Both the position numbers and the translations under genes were made by a program. A stretch of DNA of 12,086 nucleotides from Acinetobacter sp. N54.MGS-139 (lineage in GTDB: Bacteria; Pseudomonadota; Gammaproteobacteria; Burkholderiales; Burkholderiaceae_F): positions 1-12,086 of the forward strand of contig LARN01000044.1 in assembly GCA_000980495.1 (NCBI GenBank), given 5' to 3'. Position 1 is the stretch's first letter, and every line of letters begins with the position of its first letter. This document shows positions 1 through 12,086 of this stretch, one piece after another. Under the pieces are notes generated by a model. That model had not been told where the DNA came from. It ran no database searches and saw only the letters and a program-made list of their open reading frames with translations.

Positions 1-558
1 TGATCTTTTTCCGTAGAGACGGGCGCAGAAGACAGTCATCAGAGTAATAACGTCCTTGACGAGTTCCGTTTCGAAAGACTGCTGTTCCGGTTCATCAAGC
101 ATGACTACGCGAGTGCCCATGTAGTGAGCGATGTAATAAATCAATTCGGTACCGAATCGGAGGAGTCGATCGTCGTGAGAAAGAACCAACGTGCCGATAC
201 GATGAAGTAAAAGCAGTCTCAATAAACGCTTGAGCCCCGGCTTTTTGCAATTGAGCCCGCTTCCGAGGTCTTTGATTACCAACTGACATCCGTAGTGACT
301 GAGTCTTTCGGCTTGGGCTGCCAAGTCCGAGCGCTGGTCATAGCTTGAGACTCTTGCATACCCGACCATGATCCTTTTGTCGAGGTTCGGATGAAGTATT
401 TCATGAACTTCATCAGGATCAAAACGCCTTTGATTTCCGATTGTTCTGATGACTCGCGAGAATTTGCCGTTTTTGCACCACCGCCTTACGGTTGCAACAC
501 AAACGCCAAATGATTTGGCAACATCTCCGATAGACATTAAATTCTGCAGCTCTTTCAT
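1..558 (-). CDS. tnpA: IS607-family serine transposase/resolvase TnpA (runs off the left edge)
   Basis: Small serine recombinase that moves IS607-type elements by site-specific recombination. The frame is open for 186 codons from the ATG at 558 to base 1 with no stop, so the C-terminus lies outside the window. Residues about 7-50 form a MerR-like helix-turn-helix (SIGDVAKSFGVCVATVRRWC, then a GNQRRFD wing), the N-terminal DNA-binding part of IS607 TnpA. The resolvase domain starts at residue 65 with GYARVSSYDQ; Ser71 in the RVS motif is the expected catalytic serine. The visible end, CARLYGKRS, resembles the usual tail just before the stop, so little is missing (family about 190-220 residues). 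The start has a strong ribosome binding site (GGAGGG). Family assignment is firm. Whether a tnpB partner follows on the left cannot be seen. Confidence 0.87.
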   Translation of the reverse strand, partial: MKELQNLMSIGDVAKSFGVCVATVRRWCKNGKFSRVIRTIGNQRRFDPDEVHEILHPNLDKRIMVGYARVSSYDQRSDLAAQAERLSHYGCQLVIKDLGSGLNCKKPGLKRLLRLLLLHRIGTLVLSHDDRLLRFGTELIYYIAHYMGTRVVMLDEPEQQSFETELVKDVITLMTVFCARLYGKRS

Positions 559-607
559 ACTCACCCTCCAAAGAAAGCTGAGTATGTATAGGTTTGATTA
601 GATATTC
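1..607 (-). mobile_element. IS607-type element, one end (right boundary not resolved)
   Basis: The transposase reads leftward, so the element's tnpA-proximal end must lie in the roughly 50-130 bases right of the start codon at 558. IS607 elements have no long terminal inverted repeats, so the boundary cannot be placed from sequence alone; 607 is a guess set just before the palindrome cluster. The rest of the element is outside the window. Confidence 0.45.
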
Positions 608-5178: not shown

Positions 5179-5439
5179 GAGCTCCTCCTATATAGATCAG
5201 ACACTGAATAGTAGAACGATTTATAGGAAAAAAACTAAGGTCGGGCAAGGAATGGTAACGTGTCAGGGTGATTCTCTTGAAAAAAATATTATTTAATTAG
5301 TTATTAACAACAATAATCTTTTTTTACCCTAAATGGTATCATTACTCATAGCTCAGAGAACATGGATAATAAAATAGTTATTCAAGTTTGATGAGCACTA
5401 CAAACCACATTGATAATCAGCATACCGGAGCATTTAGTT
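5179..5439. other. AT-rich intergenic region between divergent yggS and the HTH gene
   Basis: 261 noncoding bases with long A/T runs, especially 5278-5330. It must hold the promoters of both flanking genes, but no strong sigma-70 pair stands out on either strand. I see no RNA gene or long repeat. Confidence 0.5.
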
Positions 5440-5898
5440 ATGCCAAAGACAATCAAGACAGCAAGAGGCCTGGCTCGTTTTGCGAAGGCCCCGTACGCGT
5501 CCCGCCGCAAATCTCTTCCCAGACACTCCTTCGAAACTCGTCAGAAAGCATTGGCGATTTTCCAGGCCGGCGGAAGCTACAAAAATTGTGCAAAAACTCT
5601 CAATATTCCCGTATACACGGCACGCGACTGGCATCGCAGTTTCCTGATCGGGACCTTCCGTGCAGAACATGGCGCTCGCCAGCAGTCCTACACACCCGAA
5701 CAGAAAGCCGAAGTGCTTCGTCTGCGTAAGGAAGAAGGCAAATCCTACAACGTTATTTCTCAGTTAACGAAAGTCAACCGCGCAACTGTTCTGCAGTGGA
5801 TCCATAAGGATATCGCTCAGCAGCAGGCTGCCGAGGCTGCTGCACAGCAGGCTCCCGCAAACGACTCTGAAATGACTGAAACCGGTCCTACAGCCTAA
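5440..5898 (+). CDS. Small protein with two transposase-type helix-turn-helix segments
   Basis: I do not recognise a named gene. The protein has 152 residues. A basic N-terminal arm (3-28, rich in Lys/Arg) is followed by a first helix-turn-helix (about 31-70: SFETRQKALAIFQAGGSYKN, CAKTLNIPVYTARDWH). A second, similar unit follows (about 84-125: YTPEQKAEVLRLRKEEGKSY, NVISQLTKVNRATVLQWI). The tail (126-152) is rich in Gln/Ala and probably disordered. Both units resemble the DNA-binding front end of IS3/IS630-type transposases, but no catalytic domain follows, so this is a DNA-binding protein and not a transposase. Start ATG 5440 has GGAG nine bases upstream; the TTG at 5410 lacks one. It stands alone between yggS and queH. 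It could be a domesticated transposase domain acting as a regulator or nucoid protein, or a relic. Confidence 0.7.
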   Translation: MPKTIKTARGLARFAKAPYASRRKSLPRHSFETRQKALAIFQAGGSYKNCAKTLNIPVYTARDWHRSFLIGTFRAEHGARQQSYTPEQKAEVLRLRKEEGKSYNVISQLTKVNRATVLQWIHKDIAQQQAAEAAAQQAPANDSEMTETGPTA

Positions 5899-5913
5899 TT
5901 GATTATCTAAGAA

Positions 5914-5925
5914 TATTCGCGAATA
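5914..5925. repeat. 12-base perfect palindrome TATTCGCGAATA
   Basis: It lies 15 bases after the stop of the HTH gene and before the long hairpin at 5940. It could be a protein-binding site, for example for the neighbouring HTH protein. Function is not shown. Confidence 0.3.
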
Positions 5926-5939
5926 AATAAGCGAAAAGC

Positions 5940-6016
5940 AGCGCCGACAGCGGCACCGAAAAGATCGTCTTTCCGGTTTCCACTTCGGCGCTAATCTTGT
6001 TTTTACTCTTTTGTTT
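5940..6016 (+). terminator. Long imperfect hairpin plus T-rich run between the HTH gene and queH
   Basis: The outer stem AGCGCCGA (5940-5947) pairs perfectly with TCGGCGCT (5985-5992). The inner stem ACCGAAAAGA (5955-5964) pairs with TCTTTCCGGT (5968-5977) with one mismatch and a TCG loop. T-rich sequence follows (5993-6016, including TTGTTTTTACTCTTTTG). The simplest reading is the terminator of the HTH gene. Because it ends only 32 bases before queH and is unusually long, a regulatory leader is also possible. Confidence 0.55.
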
Positions 6017-6024
6017 AGATCAGC

Positions 6025-6627
6025 ATGAGTTCTCTGGTTTCGGGGCCGCTCCCCAAAGAAGTTCTTTTGCATTCCTGCTGCGCACCCTGCTCTGCCGCTA
6101 TTTTGGAGTGGCTCTTGCAAAATGACGTACGTCCGACGATCTTTTTCTATAACCCGAATATTTATCCGGTTAAAGAATATTTGATTCGTAAAAACGAACT
6201 GGATCGTTACGCTCAATCGTTGGGAATCCGCGTCATTGACGGGGACTACCGGCACGACCTTTGGAGGCTTGCTGTTATCGGATTAGAAAAAGAACCCGAG
6301 AGAGGACGCCGCTGCCTCGCTTGCTTCAAGCACCGCCTTCTCGTGACAGCAGAATGCGCTAAACGTGAAGGCATTGTACTTTACACAACGACTTTGGCCG
6401 GATCCCGATGGAAGAGAGCAGAACAAATTAGAGAAGCAGCAGCGCACGCCAAATCCTTAATTCCGGAAAGCACCTACTGGGACGTAAACTGGAAAAAAGG
6501 CGGACTGCAGGAACGCCGCGGTGTTTTGCTTAAAGAAAACGGTTTCTATAACCAGCAGTATTGCGGATGCGAGTTTTCGATGGGTCATCTCACCGAAGAA
6601 CAAAGAATTGAAATTTTGAGACGCTGA
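6025..6627 (+). CDS. queH: Epoxyqueuosine reductase QueH
   Basis: Reduces epoxyqueuosine to queuosine in tRNA, the final step of queuosine synthesis. QueH is the cobalamin-independent, non-homologous replacement of QueG. The protein has 200 residues. The family's cysteine motifs are all visible: HSCCAPCS (Cys18, Cys19, Cys22), RCLACF (Cys97, Cys100) and YCGCEFS (Cys180, Cys182). Other family motifs are FFYNPNIYPVKEYLIRKNEL, TTTLAGSRWK and YWDVNWKKGG. These cysteines hold the iron-sulfur and redox centres in characterised members. The ATG at 6025 has only a weak upstream AGAT, so translation may be modest. No other queuosine gene and no preQ1 riboswitch was seen nearby. It converges on the hydrolase gene. 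Confidence 0.93.
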   Translation: MSSLVSGPLPKEVLLHSCCAPCSAAILEWLLQNDVRPTIFFYNPNIYPVKEYLIRKNELDRYAQSLGIRVIDGDYRHDLWRLAVIGLEKEPERGRRCLACFKHRLLVTAECAKREGIVLYTTTLAGSRWKRAEQIREAAAHAKSLIPESTYWDVNWKKGGLQERRGVLLKENGFYNQQYCGCEFSMGHLTEEQRIEILRR

Positions 6628-6661
6628 TCCGGAATCTTTAAGTCCTGTTTCTGAAATACAA

Positions 6662-6697
6662 AAAGCGCAGGAGGTTTCATCCGCCCTGCGCTTTCTG
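6662..6697. terminator. Bidirectional terminator between queH and the hydrolase gene
   Basis: AAAGCGCAGG (6662-6671) pairs perfectly with CCTGCGCTTT (6685-6694) around a 13-base loop. The A/T ends of the stem give a T run on either strand (CTTTCTGC on plus, CTTTTTGTAT on minus), so it can serve both convergent genes. Confidence 0.72.
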
Positions 6698-6720
6698 CTC
6701 TCTAGGAAGTTGCCTTCAGA

Positions 6721-7770
6721 TTACTTTTTTAGATACTTGCCGAAGAATTCCTGAAGCTTGGCAGCTTCTTCATTGACGTATTTCGGGACCCAGTAAGTTT
6801 CAATGTGCTGAGCGCCCTTAACCAAATAAAGTTCTTTATCCTTTGTACCGGTTGCCTTCTTGAAGGCGTCATCGGTCATGTAACGAGTGTCGGAAACATC
6901 GCCGGCGATCATGAGAAGCGGCTGATGAATCATCGCCATGCGATCGTCAACGTCCCAGTTCATCAAATCCATCAGGCTGCTCTGTGTGTAGAGGAAAGTG
7001 GAATTGGGATGAGCATGAGTGCGGAAATAATAGAAGAAGCCGTCTCTGTAAAGTGCGAACGGCAGTTTCTTTGCCTGTTCGTCTGTCAGATTCATAGCAC
7101 CGACTAACCGAACATCGCCTTCTTTTTCAAAGGTTCTGGCTTCGGCAGCCTGAGCAAGTCTCTGCTGGATCGTATCCATCTGAGAATCTTGGAAGCCGTT
7201 TCTGCGGACGCGGCCGCTGTTGAACATAGAAATAGTGGCCACAGCCTTGATGCGAGGATCTTTCTGAGCAGCGCCAAGCGTGTATCTGCCTCCGCCACAG
7301 ATGCCTAATGCACCGATTTCATTTGCATTCACTCCCGGATAGGTTCTTATGTAATCAACCATACCGTTAATGTCTTCAATACGATTGGCAGGTTTGTCGG
7401 TGTGTCTCGGTTCACCGCCGCTGGCGCCCTGATAACGCGCATCGGCTGCAACAGTGATGTAACCCATACCGGCGAGTTTCTCGGCAAAGAGACCGGCAAC
7501 CTGTTCTTTCACGCCGCCGTTCGGGTGAGCAACAACGATGGCGGGATAGGATTTTTTCGGATCGTAGCCGGCCGGTGTGTAGACGTTGGCAGCCACGCGA
7601 ATGCCGTCGACTGTATAGGAAACAGGATGAATATTTACTTTACCGGCAACGTTTTCTGTAATTGCATTGTCATATACCAGGCCGTAAGGATTCTTAGAAA
7701 AATCCGCGGCGACAGCTGAATAAGTGGTCATAAGAGCTCCGACTAAAGCAGCACAAAGTAGTTTTTTCAT
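6721..7770 (-). CDS. Secreted alpha/beta hydrolase with a Cys nucleophile elbow
   Basis: Probable exported hydrolase of 349 residues; substrate unknown. A signal peptide is clear: MKKLLCAALVGALMTTYSAV followed by AA, with cleavage near residue 22. In the hydrolase core AHPNGG (81-86) is the oxyanion-hole motif and GICGGG (156-161) is the nucleophile elbow, placing Cys158 where most relatives have Ser, as in dienelactone hydrolase. Asp291 (IAGD) and His322 (GAQHIETYW) complete a plausible triad. The fold resembles the COG1073/dienelactone hydrolase-like group. I prefer ATG 7770 over GTG 7779 because it gives the cleaner signal peptide; neither has a strong ribosome binding site. It is divergent from tctBA, separated by 454 bases, so shared control is possible but unproven. 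Confidence 0.83.
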   Translation of the reverse strand: MKKLLCAALVGALMTTYSAVAADFSKNPYGLVYDNAITENVAGKVNIHPVSYTVDGIRVAANVYTPAGYDPKKSYPAIVVAHPNGGVKEQVAGLFAEKLAGMGYITVAADARYQGASGGEPRHTDKPANRIEDINGMVDYIRTYPGVNANEIGALGICGGGRYTLGAAQKDPRIKAVATISMFNSGRVRRNGFQDSQMDTIQQRLAQAAEARTFEKEGDVRLVGAMNLTDEQAKKLPFALYRDGFFYYFRTHAHPNSTFLYTQSSLMDLMNWDVDDRMAMIHQPLLMIAGDVSDTRYMTDDAFKKATGTKDKELYLVKGAQHIETYWVPKYVNEEAAKLQEFFGKYLKK

Positions 7771-7821
7771 GCTTCGCACCCATAAGTTAAAAATGAAAAA
7801 ATCAATAAATGATCGATGTGT

Positions 7822-7838
7822 ACATACTAGGGATATGT
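7822..7838. promoter_or_regulatory. Operator-like inverted repeat ACATA-N7-TATGT upstream of the hydrolase
   Basis: A short inverted repeat about 52 bases upstream of the hydrolase start at 7770, where an operator would be expected. It is only 5 bp per arm, so chance is a real alternative. Confidence 0.25.
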
Positions 7839-8101
7839 CTAAGGAGCCGATGTCACGTATTTCTAGAAGTTTTGCCTAATTCTTCGGCGAGCACGAAAAA
7901 GGAGATTTTTTTTAGGCTGTGGAAAGTACTTGTTGTCCGAAAAAACAATTGAGGCCAAATTCGGCTCAATTTCATGCACCCAAAATATCTTTCCGTGAAA
8001 ACAACAAAAATTACACAATTGGGTTAATTGATAATCGATTGAATTTTTGGAATATTTTCTAATCTTCCGGCGAAGCGCCTTATTAAAACCTTTGGTCGGC
8101 A

Positions 8102-8194
8102 ATGAGCCCTGATGTAGAATCACTCAGAATGGGCTATGTAAGTAATTATTTCAGCGGGATAAATCCCTGTTTTTCATAATCTCGACAGGCTCAT
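8102..8194 (+). promoter_or_regulatory. Foldable leader of tctB with competing pairings
   Basis: AGCCC (8105-8109) pairs with GGGCT (8131-8135), enclosing a small TGAT/ATCA hairpin (8110-8113 with 8119-8122). Alternatively ATGAGCC (8102-8108) pairs with GGCTCAT (8188-8194); the two cannot coexist. Between them GGGA-TAAA-TCCC (8156-8167) followed by TGTTTTTC looks like a weak terminator. The arrangement suggests an attenuator-type leader, but the stems are short. Confidence 0.3.
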
Positions 8195-8224
8195 AAACAA
8201 CCTCATTAAACAAGAGTCACAAAC

Positions 8225-8674
8225 ATGAAAGAGTCCGACTTATGCGTCATCGCGGTTGTCTATGGCGTTGCGACCTGGTTTTTGGTCATGACGCTCCAGC
8301 TGCCGCCGGCCGCTCAATCCTACCCTCTAATTCTCTTAACAGCGCTTTACCTCTGCAACACTCTATTTCTTGGTAAGCAGCTCTATTCCTTCTACCGCCA
8401 CCGAGTTGTTCTTAATGACTTCAGAAAACTGTTCGCCGGTTTCCTGCCCGGACAGTTTTTCGGCGTCTTGGCTGGCTGCATTATTTATATGGCCTTTGTG
8501 AACTATTTGGGCTATTACATCTCCAGCGTTCTGTATCTGCTGCTGGCCCAATTCTTCCTGAAGGTAAAACCGATCCCCGCAATTATCAGCTGCGCCTGCA
8601 TCATGATTGTGACTTATCTGGTTTTCTCGATGTTCCTGCATGTACCTCTTCCCCTCGGGGTCTGGTTTGAATAA
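8225..8674 (+). CDS. tctB: TctB-family small membrane subunit, tripartite tricarboxylate transporter
   Basis: Small integral membrane subunit of a TctABC-type secondary transporter for citrate-like or other carboxylates. The protein has 149 residues, the usual TctB size, with about four hydrophobic segments: roughly 6-25, 31-50, 77-97 and a long pair from 100 to 145. TctB proteins are weakly conserved, so the call rests on length, topology and position just before tctA. ATG 8225 has only a weak AAGAG upstream, while tctA has a strong site, hinting at unequal synthesis. The leader upstream is foldable. Only 12 bases separate it from tctA. Confidence 0.85.
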   Translation: MKESDLCVIAVVYGVATWFLVMTLQLPPAAQSYPLILLTALYLCNTLFLGKQLYSFYRHRVVLNDFRKLFAGFLPGQFFGVLAGCIIYMAFVNYLGYYISSVLYLLLAQFFLKVKPIPAIISCACIMIVTYLVFSMFLHVPLPLGVWFE

Positions 8675-8686
8675 GGAGAAGAAGCC

Positions 8687-10195
8687 ATGTTAGAAACACT
8701 CTCCTTGATGGGCATGGGTTTCATCCATGCGATGAATCCTCTTACATTGGTTCTGATGATCGGTGCCACTGCACTGGGTATTACGATTGGCTGTTTGCCC
8801 GGTTTGTCCGCAGCGATGGGCGTTGCCCTCCTGCTTCCGGTGACTTTCGGTATGGATCAAGCCACCGGTTTGATCGTCTTAGGCGGTATCTACTGCGGCG
8901 CCATCTTCGGCGGATCGATTTCCGCGATTCTGATTCATACCCCGGGTACGCCTGCTTCTGCCGCAACCGCTATTGAAGGCTACGAGCTGACAAAGAAAGG
9001 TTTGGCCGCTAAGGCGCTTGCTGTTGCCTGCTTTGCCTCTTTCTGCGGCGGTTTATTAAGCTGTATTTCTCTTTACTTCTTCTCTCCGTTCCTTGCCGAA
9101 CTGGCAATGAAGTTCAAGAGCCCGGAATATTTCTGGCTTTCGATTTTCGGCTTAACCGTGATCGCCGGTGTCTCCTCTAAATCGCTTCTCAAAGGTTTCA
9201 TCTCCGGTATCTTAGGTCTTCTGATTTCTACGATCGGTATGGACCCGATGGAAGGCGTCGAACGCTTCATGATGGGCAGCACAACTCTTTACAACGGTGT
9301 CAACGTTACTTGCGCGCTGATCGGTTTATTCTCTATGTCTCAGGTTTTGATCCTGGCAGAAAAAGCGATTAAGAAACGCGCAAAAGCCGCTAAATTCACG
9401 GGCAGCCTTCTTCTGAGCCGCTCCGATATTAAGAGACTGGCTCCGACCATCACTCGTTCTTGGATTATCGGCAACATCTTAGGTATCTTGCCGGGCGCCG
9501 GCGCAACAATCGCCTGCTTCATGGGTTACAACGAAGCGCGCCGCTTCTCCAAACATAAAGATGAATTCGGCAAGGGTTCCATTGACGGTGTGGCCGGTTC
9601 CGAAGCTGCCAACAACGCGGTGACCGGCGGCTCTCTTATCCCGACGCTGACGTTGGGTATCCCGGGCGAATCCGTAACAGCCGTGTTAATGGGCGGTTTG
9701 ATTATTCACGGTCTGCAGCCGGGTCCGGAACTGTTCTCGACTTACGCTCCGATGACTTATACATTCTTTGCCGGTTTCGTGCTTGTACAGTTTGCGATGC
9801 TCGGCGTCGGTCTCGTCGGCTGCCGTATGTTTGCTCAGGTTTCCCGCCTTTCCGACTCCATTCTGATTCCTTCCATCTTCCTGCTTTGCGTTGTGGGTTC
9901 TTTCGCTATTCACAACAACTTTGTGGAAGTGATCATCATGTTCATTTTCGGCATCATCGGCTACTTCGTTCGCAAGTTTGATTTGAACGCGGCCGCCATC
10001 GTGCTGGGCTTGATCCTCGGACCGATCGGGGAAAACGGTCTGCGCCGTTCGCTCTATCTCTCCGACGGCGATCCTTCGATCCTTTTCAGCACCCCGCTCT
10101 GTTGGATGCTCATCCTCTTGTGCGTCCTCGGTACTTGCTCTCCGTGGCTGATGGCTCGCTGGGAAAAGCATGTTGAAGCCAGAGCTCACCATTAA
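8687..10195 (+). CDS. tctA: TctA-family large membrane subunit, tripartite tricarboxylate transporter
   Basis: The large, pore-forming subunit of a TctABC-type transporter, in the inner membrane; it uses an ion gradient and normally a periplasmic TctC binding protein. The protein has 502 residues with about a dozen hydrophobic segments. Family signatures are strong: [39 protein letters not shown] followed by [34 protein letters not shown], and a repeat-like [12 protein letters not shown] with [14 protein letters not shown] 8687 has AAGGAG at good spacing in the tctB-tctA gap. No tctC is in view, so the substrate protein must be encoded elsewhere. Transcription ends at the strong hairpin at 10215. 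Confidence 0.97.
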
Positions 10196-10242: not shown

Positions 10243-10652
10243 GTGCGCTCGGCATGAGCGGATTCTATAGGGTGAAAGTCCCGAAGTGCAGGCGGTGGCG
10301 CCAAGCACATAGCCAAAGGCAAGGCCCGAATCGCGAGGTTCCGACTGAAGGAAGCCCGAGGCAAACCATTGACCTTACGAACAGGAACGGTCTCAGGCAT
10401 AAGCTGTCGGGTAAGACTGCATAACAAGTTGAAGCCCTAAGGCCACACGGAGACGGCAATGTATAGACCGAAGGTACATGATGGGAAAGAGTTCGTTCTT
10501 ACCCGAGGAGAACTCACGGACGCAAGCCAATCGGCTTGGCGGAGTAAAGCTTGCCGTGAGTGGTCAGCAGACGGCATAGTACTCGGTAGCAGTAGGCGAG
10601 GAAGGCCCGAATCTTAACGGGGTGTGTTACTGTAACTACGACAAAGGGAATC
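10243..10652 (+). ncRNA. Group II intron ribozyme, 5' domains
   Basis: The 5' part of the catalytic RNA, covering domain I and following domains up to the ORF. Landmarks are TATAGGGTGAAAGTCCCGAA (10266-10285), GACTGAAGGAAGCCCGAGGC (10343-10362), TTCTTACCCGAGGAGA (about 10496-10511) and GGTCAGCAGACGGCATAGTA (10562-10581). A clear stem CTCACGG/CCGTGAG (10513-10519 with 10554-10560) encloses CAAGCC/GGCTTG (10523-10528 with 10533-10538). Domain V is missing because the element is cut downstream. Confidence 0.85.
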
Positions 10653-11203
10653 ATGGATAGAAACAATGAAAAACCTTCATGCGAACGAGGAGCACGGAAT
10701 GCATCCAAGCTAGCACAAAAGGATCCGCCCGCGTCCATAGGAGCAGAAGAAGACACACATAACCTCAATTTATACGCAGGCATCACCTTAGAGGCGATAC
10801 TGGAGCCATCTAATCTGAAGGAAGCACTCAAAAGAGTAGTAGCCAACAGAGGGGCTCCCGGGATTGACGGAATGGAAGTTGGGCAACTGCTCGACTGGAT
10901 ACGTAACCATCCCGGCCAGCTTACAAAGACGATTAAGGAGGGAACTTACAGGCCTTCCCCTGTGAAAAGAGTAAGCATTCCGAAAGACGAACCCGGCAAG
11001 TTCCGGGATCTGAGAATTCCGACAGTCATAGGCCGTCTTGTGCAACAAGCAACAGCCCAAGTACTCGACTGGGCCTACGACAGGGACTTCTCACATCGGA
11101 GCTTCGGGTTCAGACGGAACATGCGTGCTCACCATGCTCTCAGAATCATAGCGGCAGAAGCCGATCAAGGCTACCGATGGGCAGTGGACATGGACTTAGC
11201 CAA
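10243..11203 (+). mobile_element. Group II intron (class IIC-like), 3'-truncated
   Basis: A retroelement made of a self-splicing RNA and a reverse transcriptase. It begins with GTGCG (10243-10247), the group II 5' consensus, directly after the tctA terminator. This is the target preference of class IIC introns. The RNA part matches the conserved layout of IIC introns, as I remember the Oceanobacillus iheyensis one. The reverse transcriptase gene follows at 10653. Recognisable intron sequence stops at about 11201-11203, where the IS110-related sequence begins. Domains V/VI and the 3' splice site are absent, so this copy cannot splice as it stands. Confidence 0.88.
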
Positions 11204-11261
11204 CGATAATGTTCCCGTGTTTTTACAACAAAGCAGTTTTGCTTGCGGCACGGCTCTTTAA
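10653..11261 (+). pseudogene. ltrA: Group II intron reverse transcriptase/maturase, truncated
   Basis: The N-terminal part of an intron-encoded protein, normally about 420 residues or more. Residues about 55-183 carry RT blocks 0-2: LKEALKRVVANRGAPGIDGM, GTYRPSPVKRVSIPK, DLRIPTVIGRLVQQATAQVL and SHRSFGFRRNMRAHHAL. The sequence then reaches WAVDMDLA, where Asp179 is the first catalytic aspartate. Where KFFD should follow, it turns into unrelated residues to a stop at 11261, so the junction is near 11203. The YADD block, the maturase domain and any endonuclease domain are gone, so the product cannot be active. ATG 10653 has AGGG five bases upstream. Confidence 0.9.
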
Positions 11262-11263
11262 CA
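11231..11263 (+). promoter_or_regulatory. boxB/boxA-like antitermination signal
   Basis: A hairpin AAGCA-GTTT-TGCTT (11231-11244) is followed by GCTCTTTAACA (11253-11263), which matches 11 of 12 bases of the rRNA boxA consensus as I know it (TGCTCTTTAACA); AATTT follows, as in enterobacterial rRNA leaders. The hairpin-then-boxA order is that of rRNA leaders. It stands before a long structured noncoding stretch, with no rRNA gene nearby. Confidence 0.5.
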
Positions 11264-11310
11264 ATTTCTCAATGACGGTGAACGCAAATATTTAACGCTT
11301 GAGTCTGTAA

Positions 11311-11341
11311 GACGGTTAAGGCTTCGAATGCCTTAACCGTC
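11311..11341 (+). ncRNA. Perfect 12-bp hairpin in the IS110 noncoding end
   Basis: GACGGTTAAGGC (11311-11322) pairs fully with GCCTTAACCGTC (11330-11341) around a 7-base loop. No T run follows, so it is not a terminator on plus. It could be an RNA domain or a DNA end structure of the IS. Confidence 0.5.
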
Positions 11342-11368
11342 CTACTCACAGCGTATTCATCTTTAGGC

Positions 11369-11440
11369 GTCAAGAACTTTCGCGACATATGGCTGTAACC
11401 TCGCTTCGTTCCGTTACAGCCTATTTCACGGTTTCTTGAC
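11369..11440 (+). ncRNA. Hairpin with large internal loop: candidate bridge-RNA-type element
   Basis: The outer stem GTCAAGAA (11369-11376) pairs with TTCTTGAC (11433-11440) and the inner stem GGCTGTAAC (11391-11399) with GTTACAGCC (11413-11421), both perfect. The unpaired sides, 11377-11390 and 11422-11432, form a large internal loop. IS110 bridge RNAs carry their target- and donor-recognising bases in internal loops bounded by two stems, so the shape fits. It is one sequence only, with no covariation evidence. Confidence 0.4.
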
Positions 11441-11464
11441 TCATTCAAGAGCCTAAGTTAAAAG
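11436..11464 (+). promoter_or_regulatory. Candidate sigma-70 promoter inside the IS110 end
   Basis: TTGACT (11436-11441) and TAAAAG (11459-11464) are spaced by 17 bases. The -35 match is 5 of 6 and the -10 match 4 of 6. It would start RNA near 11471, covering the structured region and the transposase. The -35 overlaps the right arm of the hairpin at 11369-11440. Confidence 0.35.
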
Positions 11465-11622
11465 CGAAGAGTTGTTTTTGTTTTTCATCAACGTAGTTAG
11501 ACGAAATGCATAAATCGGTGCAGCCAACCGTATTCAAAAACTTGTCGGCAATAAATTCTCTTTTGATTGCTTCTAAAGAGCGAACCGGCACTGGAGGCAA
11601 TGAATAGGAAGGGGTTGCTAAG

Positions 11623-11684
11623 GAGGATTTAGGAGTGACGAAGTGAGGAACTCCTGAGGTATAACCTCTGCGGCGTCAATCCTC
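11623..11684 (+). ncRNA. Possible three-way RNA junction before the IS110 transposase
   Basis: The closing stem GAGGATT (11623-11629) pairs with AATCCTC (11678-11684). Inside are two adjacent hairpins: AGGAGT/ACTCCT (11631-11636 with 11650-11655) and GAGGT-ATA-ACCTC (11656-11668). All stems are perfect. It ends 60 bases before the transposase ATG, so it lies in its 5' leader or in a separate small RNA. Confidence 0.45.
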
Positions 11685-11744
11685 GCGGATGCGACCATAT
11701 ATGCTTTTTCGACCACTAATCGAAAGATATTAAAGGAGCTCCTC

Positions 11745-11972
11745 ATGGATAATCATACACAATACTCGGGTTTTGCGGGCGTGGACCTTGCCAAAAAAGT
11801 AATGCAGATTCATTTTGTCACCGGAGACGGAGAAATCACTGACAAACAAGTCAAAAGAGCTGAGTTTCTCGATTTCTTCAGAAACCGGACTAAATGCCTT
11901 ATCGGGATGGAAGCCTGCGGTGCTTCTCAGGACTGGGCTAGTAGTTCAATCTATAAATACGTTATCAATTAA
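11745..11972 (+). pseudogene. IS110-family transposase, truncated after the N-terminal DEDD segment
   Basis: The start of an IS110-type transposase, normally 300-400 residues. Here 65 residues are genuine, followed by about ten unrelated ones and a stop. FAGVDLAKKVMQIHFV holds Asp14, the first acidic residue of the RuvC-like DEDD site. CLIGMEACGASQDW holds Glu56, the second. The other two acidic residues and the C-terminal Tnp20 domain with its serine are missing. Break point: after codon 65 (11937-11939). The start is clear: GGAG lies six bases before ATG 11745, within the palindrome AGGAGCTCCT, which could hide the ribosome binding site by pairing between RNAs. The product cannot be active. 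Confidence 0.88.
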
Positions 11973-12086
11973 GTAAATGCGGACTCGATGTCTTCAAGCT
12001 TCCATTTCCAGCGGTAGATCACCGGTTCCGCATTCACTTGCATGATCCAACGGTTAATGTGATTGACAAGCTCTTCTTTAGAACGA
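11969..12086 (-). CDS. C-terminal tail of a transposase-like ORF entering from the right edge
   Basis: On minus the frame is open from the window edge to the stop at 11969-11971, giving 38 residues: RSKEELVNHINRWIMQVNAE followed by PVIYRWKWKLEDIESAFT. A SKEELVNHINRWI helix, an Asn about five residues later and a YxW motif recall the C-termini of IS630-type transposases, but this is too short to be sure. Its end abuts the IS110 break, so a third element probably cut the IS110 copy. A TA dinucleotide sits at the break (11939-11940), as IS630 insertion would need. Confidence 0.4.
   Translation of the reverse strand, partial: RSKEELVNHINRWIMQVNAEPVIYRWKWKLEDIESAFT

Follow-up and report, generated by a model that had tools for sequence, protein, structure and literature searches.

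In the account of Durrant 2024 (PMC11208160), IS110-family insertion sequences pass through a circular form; elements of the IS1111 type have a short left end and a long right end that holds the bridge RNA, and the IS110 group shows the reverse arrangement, with a long left end as the typical state. For filamentous phages, the ICTV profile (PMC8491893) places the origin and the packaging signals in the intergenic regions of inoviruses, and describes a double-stranded packaging signal that is uncovered at the end of the filament. A satellite of a filamentous phage, RS1 of CTXphi, is named in a 2024 review of hitcher elements (PMC11389934). No paper on insertion sequences with inovirus signals was found among the titles and abstract openings listed by searches of open-licence literature. 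A plasmid satellite of an inovirus was reportedly presented by Schmid in 2024. Insertion sequences themselves are not known to reach new cells other than when carried by plasmids, phages or chromosomal DNA.

The locus compared here with these systems lies in a 12,086-nucleotide stretch of gut-bacterial DNA, called the window, where an IS110-family element carries a structured two-hairpin module in its non-coding left end. The analysis suggests that some jumping genes bear phage signals that could aid their travel between cells. The features concerned are as follows.

10248..11203 (start approximate), plus strand: group II intron with a reverse-transcriptase gene, interrupted by the IS110-family element (Rfam RF02001 and RF01998, RVT_1)
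11202..11219, plus strand: left terminal sequence AACGATAATGTTCCCGTG of the IS110-family element (similarity to intron homologs stops at 11203; end motif present in relatives)
11253..11264, plus strand: boxA-like sequence GCTCTTTAACAA, of which TCTTTAACAA also occurs in the left ends of L051, L053 and L052
11298..11442, plus strand: two-hairpin module, common to other insertion sequences and inovirus-like contigs, with covariation
11311..11341, plus strand: hairpin 1, a 12-bp perfect stem, with two-sided changes in 13 of 14 helix pairs (alignment A4)
11369..11440, plus strand: hairpin 2, with a conserved outer stem GTCAAG/CTTGAC, a conserved middle with two mismatches and a variable tip
11643..11746, plus strand: leader hairpin of the transposase gene (fold of -36.0 kcal/mol)
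11745..11972, plus strand: disrupted IS110-family transposase frame (tblastn matches in plasmids, matches in family genomes; about 65 residues of homology)

Boundaries and grouping of the IS110-family element

A hydrolase gene of the window shows 99% protein identity (best segment) to Parasutterella excrementihominis, and the chromosomal part of the window about 90% DNA identity, so the window derives from a close relative of that species. Similarity of the chromosome to L003 stops at 10247. Downstream of tctA, intron families were matched in Rfam at 10327-10497 and 10541-10607, and RVT_1 was identified by Pfam. The intron starts (at about 10248) directly behind a terminator-like hairpin of tctA, a site typical for one class of group II introns. 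At the other end of the window (1-564, minus strand) is a frame with MerR-like and serine-recombinase sequence, which we take to resemble TnpA of IS607.

Matches to the intron at E ≤ 1e-10 were found in five of the 67 genomes of the window's family, two of them (G001 and G065) over the full stretch. These two uninterrupted copies are 92% identical, and the match ends at window base 11203; L283 shows the uninterrupted sequence. In the window AACGATAATGT stands at 11202; this end motif recurs in all three relatives checked (L051 at 5209, L053 at 347 and L052 at 4357), where it precedes the transposase genes, and it is exactly at this motif that L052 and L053 (96% identity between the two) part. 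The stop of the intron at 11203, together with the occurrence of AACGATAATGT in relatives, indicates that the IS110 element begins at 11202-11204, and the AA at the terminus is probably common to element and target. The 541 bases of 11204-11744, up to the transposase ATG at 11745, are the true left end of the element. A left end near 11595, with the module outside the element, had been considered by analogy with ISEc11 and was overturned by the intron boundary and AACGATAATGT.

In a first-pass annotation, made from the letters of the window, a left limit at 11204, about 540 gene-free and structured bases and a dead transposase gene had been proposed, and these proposals were borne out. The boundary agrees with that limit, the left end is both long and strongly folded (z -8.1, see below), and no reading frame of at least 60 codons lies wholly within 11204-11744, with one frame fused to the intron gene extending to 11261. 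Similarity to IS110 transposases stops near residue 65, at about base 11939, and is followed at 11940-12086 by a minus-strand frame that, by resemblance, presumably encodes the C-terminus of another transposase; the IS110 gene has thus probably been interrupted by a further insertion sequence.

A Pfam scan of the 75-residue transposase frame gave no match. The fragment is 57% identical to a P. excrementihominis transposase and was matched in 12 of the 67 family genomes; no relative of it turned up in viral contigs or in an initial scan of genome contigs. Among the best 20 of 1388 plasmid records (tblastn), the transposases were 60-64% identical and many were labelled ISEc11, presumably a member of the IS1111 type. 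In ISEc11 and a relative in L002, whose ends are visible from empty versus occupied sites, the start codon follows a 13-bp subterminal repeat at a distance of 143 and 132 bases, respectively, and the repeat on the other side ends 270 bases beyond the stop. Candidate 11-bp repeats that overlap the common left-end motif, one of several candidates in each case, would give left and right ends of 229 and 367 bases in L051 and of 569 and 569 bases in L053. Long left ends thus do occur near this element, which makes its assignment to the IS1111 type, based on sequence comparison, probable only. The right end of the copy studied here falls outside the window. In several of the E. coli chromosomes listed, the right-end stretch of ISEc11 (L001 4074-4277) occurs alone, at about 78% identity, as solitary right ends.

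The leader hairpin pairs the ribosome-binding region with GTGAGGAACTCC and is recognisable by eye in six aligned relatives. The motif TCTTTAACAA was present in all four elements checked (at 5324 in L051, 414 in L053 and 4424 in L052). We liken GCTCTTTAACAA to the boxA of rRNA leaders, and the boxA-like TCTTTAACAA hints at a possible antitermination of the long leader.

Structure and covariation of the two-hairpin module

The perfect stems noticed in the first-pass annotation are exact at all three places, namely in hairpin 1 (GACGGTTAAGGC at 11311-11322 with 11330-11341), in the outer stem of hairpin 2 (GTCAAGAA at 11369-11376 with TTCTTGAC at 11433-11440) and in its inner stem (GGCTGTAAC at 11391-11399 with 11413-11421). 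What had been read as a large two-sided internal loop is instead an imperfect but mostly paired helix; a bulge of 3 bases and two mismatches interrupt it and, as judged by eye, recur in most relatives. Folded as RNA, 11290-11460 reaches -65.4 kcal/mol, against -35.0 (sd 3.7) for shuffled sequences, and none of 200 shuffles was as good. The copy of P. excrementihominis gave a z of -4.6 and that of a Turicimonas MAG a z of -2.2, with 5 of 200 shuffles as good.

By blastn with the module, only P. excrementihominis and the Turicimonas MAG match among the 67 family genomes. From these two copies and that of the window a covariance model, R1, was built, which matched 16 of the 67 genomes at E ≤ 1, including 11 at E ≤ 2.2e-4 (E-values of both models are rough, and G001 and G002 match by construction). 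When the 16 matches were aligned, 88.0% of cells were paired, compared with at most 43.5% in slid controls; two-sided changes occurred in 34 of 46 pairs (at most 24 in the controls), and the covariation score was 0.378 (at most 0.098). A second model, R2, of the second hairpin alone and built from 10 sequences, matched at E ≤ 0.01 in 17 of the 67 genomes of the family, 8 of which had supplied input sequences, and in 22 of 399 genomes of the order, 4 of them input suppliers. The second hairpin showed two-sided changes in 16 of 22 pairs over 38 distinct rows; among the 40 rows of the full alignment, some are the same hairpins matched on the reverse strand. The alignments A4, A7 and A8 were fitted to their own models, which favours structure in these counts.

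The compensatory change in the stems, which the first-pass annotation had set as a test, is strong and speaks for a real structure, but the hairpin family that shows it is not tied to IS110. At gathering scores, Rfam matched only intron families in the whole window; three sub-threshold matches (E 2.9-5.7) fell within 11150-12086, none of them over the module, and ten related loci gave no match at E ≤ 0.1.

Module relatives in insertion sequences and filamentous phages

With R1 at E ≤ 10, the module was absent from four related IS110 loci (L051-L054), and thus is not a standard part of these elements. Its relatives occur in diverse surroundings, of which part of the matches were classified. Genome G053 has 15 R1 matches of equal score. 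Seven of these loci were compared and have a transposon unit in common, five aligning with the seventh over 1909 bp at 99.9-100% and one over 926 bp; starting at 4571 of L089, the unit extends beyond a 497-residue transposase, with the module between the stop codon of that gene and the unit end and TGAGACT-type repeats near both ends. Another element, in G053 and G056, belongs to the IS110 family (Pfam DEDD_Tnp_IS110 and Transposase_20) and has the module in a 565-base right end, with 12-bp subterminal repeats, TGGACCACCCAC and its complement. One IS110 copy in G053 holds another insertion sequence inside its second hairpin (L154 1667-3812), with about 11 bases repeated at the junction.

The module also lies behind istB in G002 (Pfam IstB_IS21), behind a truncated istB in G193, and in G002 at the end of a frame that we take to be ISL3-like, whose last codons run into the module. 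In all these contexts, as in the window, it is on the strand of the transposase gene; in the window it precedes that gene and in the G053 unit, the G053/G056 IS110 element and the istB and ISL3-like contexts it follows it. Frames presumably of IS5-like and ISL3-like type are found downstream of copies in G003 and G020 and fit no simple pattern. A transposase for which Pfam gave only HTH_32 is presumably ISNCY/IS1202-like, and a remnant in G059, with no Pfam match, was likewise named tentatively. In G055 (L058), two near-identical tandem copies about 290 bases apart adjoin an opposite-strand recombinase frame, presumably IS607-like. Copies in G001 and G052 lie between apparently ordinary genes; for P. 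excrementihominis (the G001 copy) these are a permease gene and a LysR-type gene, with no IS110 element.

The Turicimonas MAG copy (L050) is adjoined by a Drt3a/Drt3b reverse-transcriptase pair (5421-8761, PADLOC); a link to DRT3 defence genes was dropped, as the other contexts inspected were without them. A link to IscB and omega-RNA, prompted by a frame behind one copy that we take to be IscB-like, was also dropped, since Rfam matched nothing at that locus (E ≤ 0.1).

In genomes of the order, the module was found beside Zot-like frames, one of them confirmed by Pfam; the frames of L100/L163 and L102 are presumably Zot-like. The 8.3-kb contig L162 contains a G2P-type replication gene and a Pfam-confirmed zot, and the hairpin follows zot at a distance of 36 bases. 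For the second hairpin, two exact patterns were found in 10 and 27 viral contigs (37 in total), and a permuted form of the first of these patterns and one intended control pattern in none. Blastn with the module found nothing in plasmids and phages, nor did an exact loop pattern in viral contigs. Pfam Zot scored above its cut-off in 18 of the 37 hairpin contigs, and in 14 of the 28 that are of at most 15 kb, and in none of 37 control contigs, these being drawn from 82 stretches with an unrelated 16-base word, which included 40 other contigs no longer than 15 kb, 37 of which were taken. The 19 hairpin contigs with no Zot match count against a phage assignment.

The hairpin is on the strand opposite the nearest zot in 17 of the 18 contigs. 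The exception is G488, in which hairpin and zot are some 74 kb apart; G482 carries zot on either strand. The 18 contigs are not independent, since five or more of them (G467, G476, G478, G479 and G484) have near-equal spacing and appear closely related. In most of the viral contigs the distance between hairpin and zot is about 0.5 to 8 kb, on either side, and this lack of a fixed place also counts against a phage signal. Of 40 phage or phage-like sources, R1, which covers both hairpins, matched 26 (E ≤ 0.01), and 17 of these matches span the whole model. The hairpin family occurs in inoviruses of Burkholderiales-type hosts, on the strand opposite zot. None of ten annotated inovirus records, whose labels name no Burkholderiales host, had the hairpin at E ≤ 10, and no nick site was identified. 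Zot (Pfam, E ≤ 1e-4) was found in none of the 67 genomes of the window's family, and thus no helper phage was seen there.

When folded with DNA parameters, 29 of 30 distinct hairpins were more stable on the complement of the element strand, the gene-sense strand of the phages (mean -16.2 versus -12.9 kcal/mol for the element strand), the sole exception being the G002 copy (L050). For this count 10 of the 40 rows of A7 were dropped, namely seven reverse-strand matches, one duplicate and both L136 matches. On the complement strand the two conserved mismatches read G-T and G-A. This strand preference favours a folded single strand of DNA over a transposase-sense transcript, with the proviso that the rows are related.

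Possible functions and comparison with known systems

Computation thus delineated a sequence-structure family with conserved pairing, which is present in other insertion sequences, is associated with Zot and keeps a near-constant orientation. The reading that accounts best for this is that the module is an inovirus-type single-strand DNA signal, for packaging or as an origin, which insertion sequences carry and by which they may hitch-hike with a helper phage; we put its probability at roughly 0.53. In the phage, the hairpin would act as folded single-stranded DNA, either as packaging signal or as complementary-strand origin. Given the circular form of IS110-family elements, a circle with an inovirus signal could be replicated or packaged by a helper phage. 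In an insertion sequence, the module may let the excised circle be treated in this way by a helper filamentous phage, and the element would thereby hitch-hike between cells. The window copy, being interrupted, could at most act in cis. More tentatively, and with the odds somewhat against it, unrelated insertion sequences of the IS110 family, of IS21 and of two further transposase families may repeatedly have taken up, beside their transposase genes, a single-strand packaging or origin signal of filamentous phages, with their excised circles packaged in the manner of phage satellites.

The strongest rival is that the module is a neutral or selfish dispersed repeat, MITE-like or ERIC-like, of no benefit to its carriers. 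Such a repeat would account for the G001 and G052 copies with ordinary-looking neighbours, for the tandem pair of G055 next to the opposite-strand IS607-like frame and for the variable place in phage contigs. A neutral repeat should, however, sit either way round, and the module is opposite the nearest zot in 17 of 18 contigs (not all independent) and on the transposase-gene strand in the window, the G053 unit, the G053/G056 IS110 element and the istB and ISL3-like contexts; casual inspection noticed no terminal repeats of its own. This explanation is judged rather unlikely.

A leader RNA controlling the transposase gene, with a promoter formed at the circle junction, the boxA-like site preventing early termination and the RNA folding upstream of the gene, is a good deal less probable. 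It agrees with the occurrence, in left ends of this IS110 subgroup, of a boxA-like sequence and a leader hairpin, and with a TTGACA near the right end of L051 and a TAATGT in the left end, but wherever other insertion sequences were inspected the transposase gene precedes the module, related IS110 loci are without it, phages have it too and it is the complementary strand that folds better.

The first-pass annotation had taken the structure to be a bridge RNA of this IS110 element. A strongly structured module in a long non-coding left end, as in the IS110 group, and behind the place where a junction promoter would be, is what such an RNA would look like. Against this, the module is missing from the four related IS110 loci, occurs where there is no IS110 element and in unrelated transposons and phages, and folds better as the complement, and the nearest plasmid matches are of the IS1111 type, in which the bridge RNA belongs to the right end. 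It was on these grounds, together with the loop comparison that follows, that bridge RNA was dropped as the leading reading. The annotation had further proposed 11377-11390 and 11422-11432 as guide loops, and neither showed a match beyond chance in what is a weak test, the loop limits being uncertain: against 60 bases around the intact insertion site the two loops matched over at most 5 and 6 bases (equalled by 257 and 68 of 500 shuffles), and against the left terminus over 4 and 5 bases (387 and 152 of 500). A bridge RNA is accordingly considered very improbable here.

Least probable of all is a recombination site, attC-like or Xer-type, used as a folded single strand in phage or insertion-sequence recombination: a long imperfect hairpin with conserved mismatches and a variable tip resembles attC sites, but the outer repeats here are GTCAAG/CTTGAC, with neither the GTT/AAC of attC nor recognisable Xer arms.

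If the single-strand DNA signal reading is true, insertion sequences would have a phage-type signal of their own, repeatedly gained, by which they could spread through filamentous phages, and a structured non-coding IS110 end need not be a bridge RNA. The hairpin family can also be used to search Burkholderiales-type genomes for filamentous phages and for elements that may hitch-hike with them.

Compared with IS621 and the bridge RNAs of the IS110 group, the locus has the same kind of long, structured, non-coding left end, but its module occurs in unrelated transposons and phages, is missing from related IS110 loci and shows no recognised guides. It resembles ISEc11, of the IS1111 group, in its N-terminal transposase (60-64% identity, best 20 of 1388 records) and in a recognisable leader hairpin, and differs in a left end of 541 bases instead of about 140 and in the phage-type module inside it. 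With the packaging or intergenic hairpins of filamentous phages (Inoviridae) the module shares its non-coding nature, its occurrence in zot genomes, a near-constant orientation and a better fold on the gene-sense strand; it departs from them in its absence from the ten annotated inoviruses, in its variable place relative to zot and in its presence in insertion sequences, and the function suggested for it is inferred. Unlike in known phage satellites, the proposed hitch-hiker is an insertion sequence, and no helper was seen in the 67 family genomes; like satellites and other hitchers, it would be a small element that uses the particle of a helper filamentous phage.
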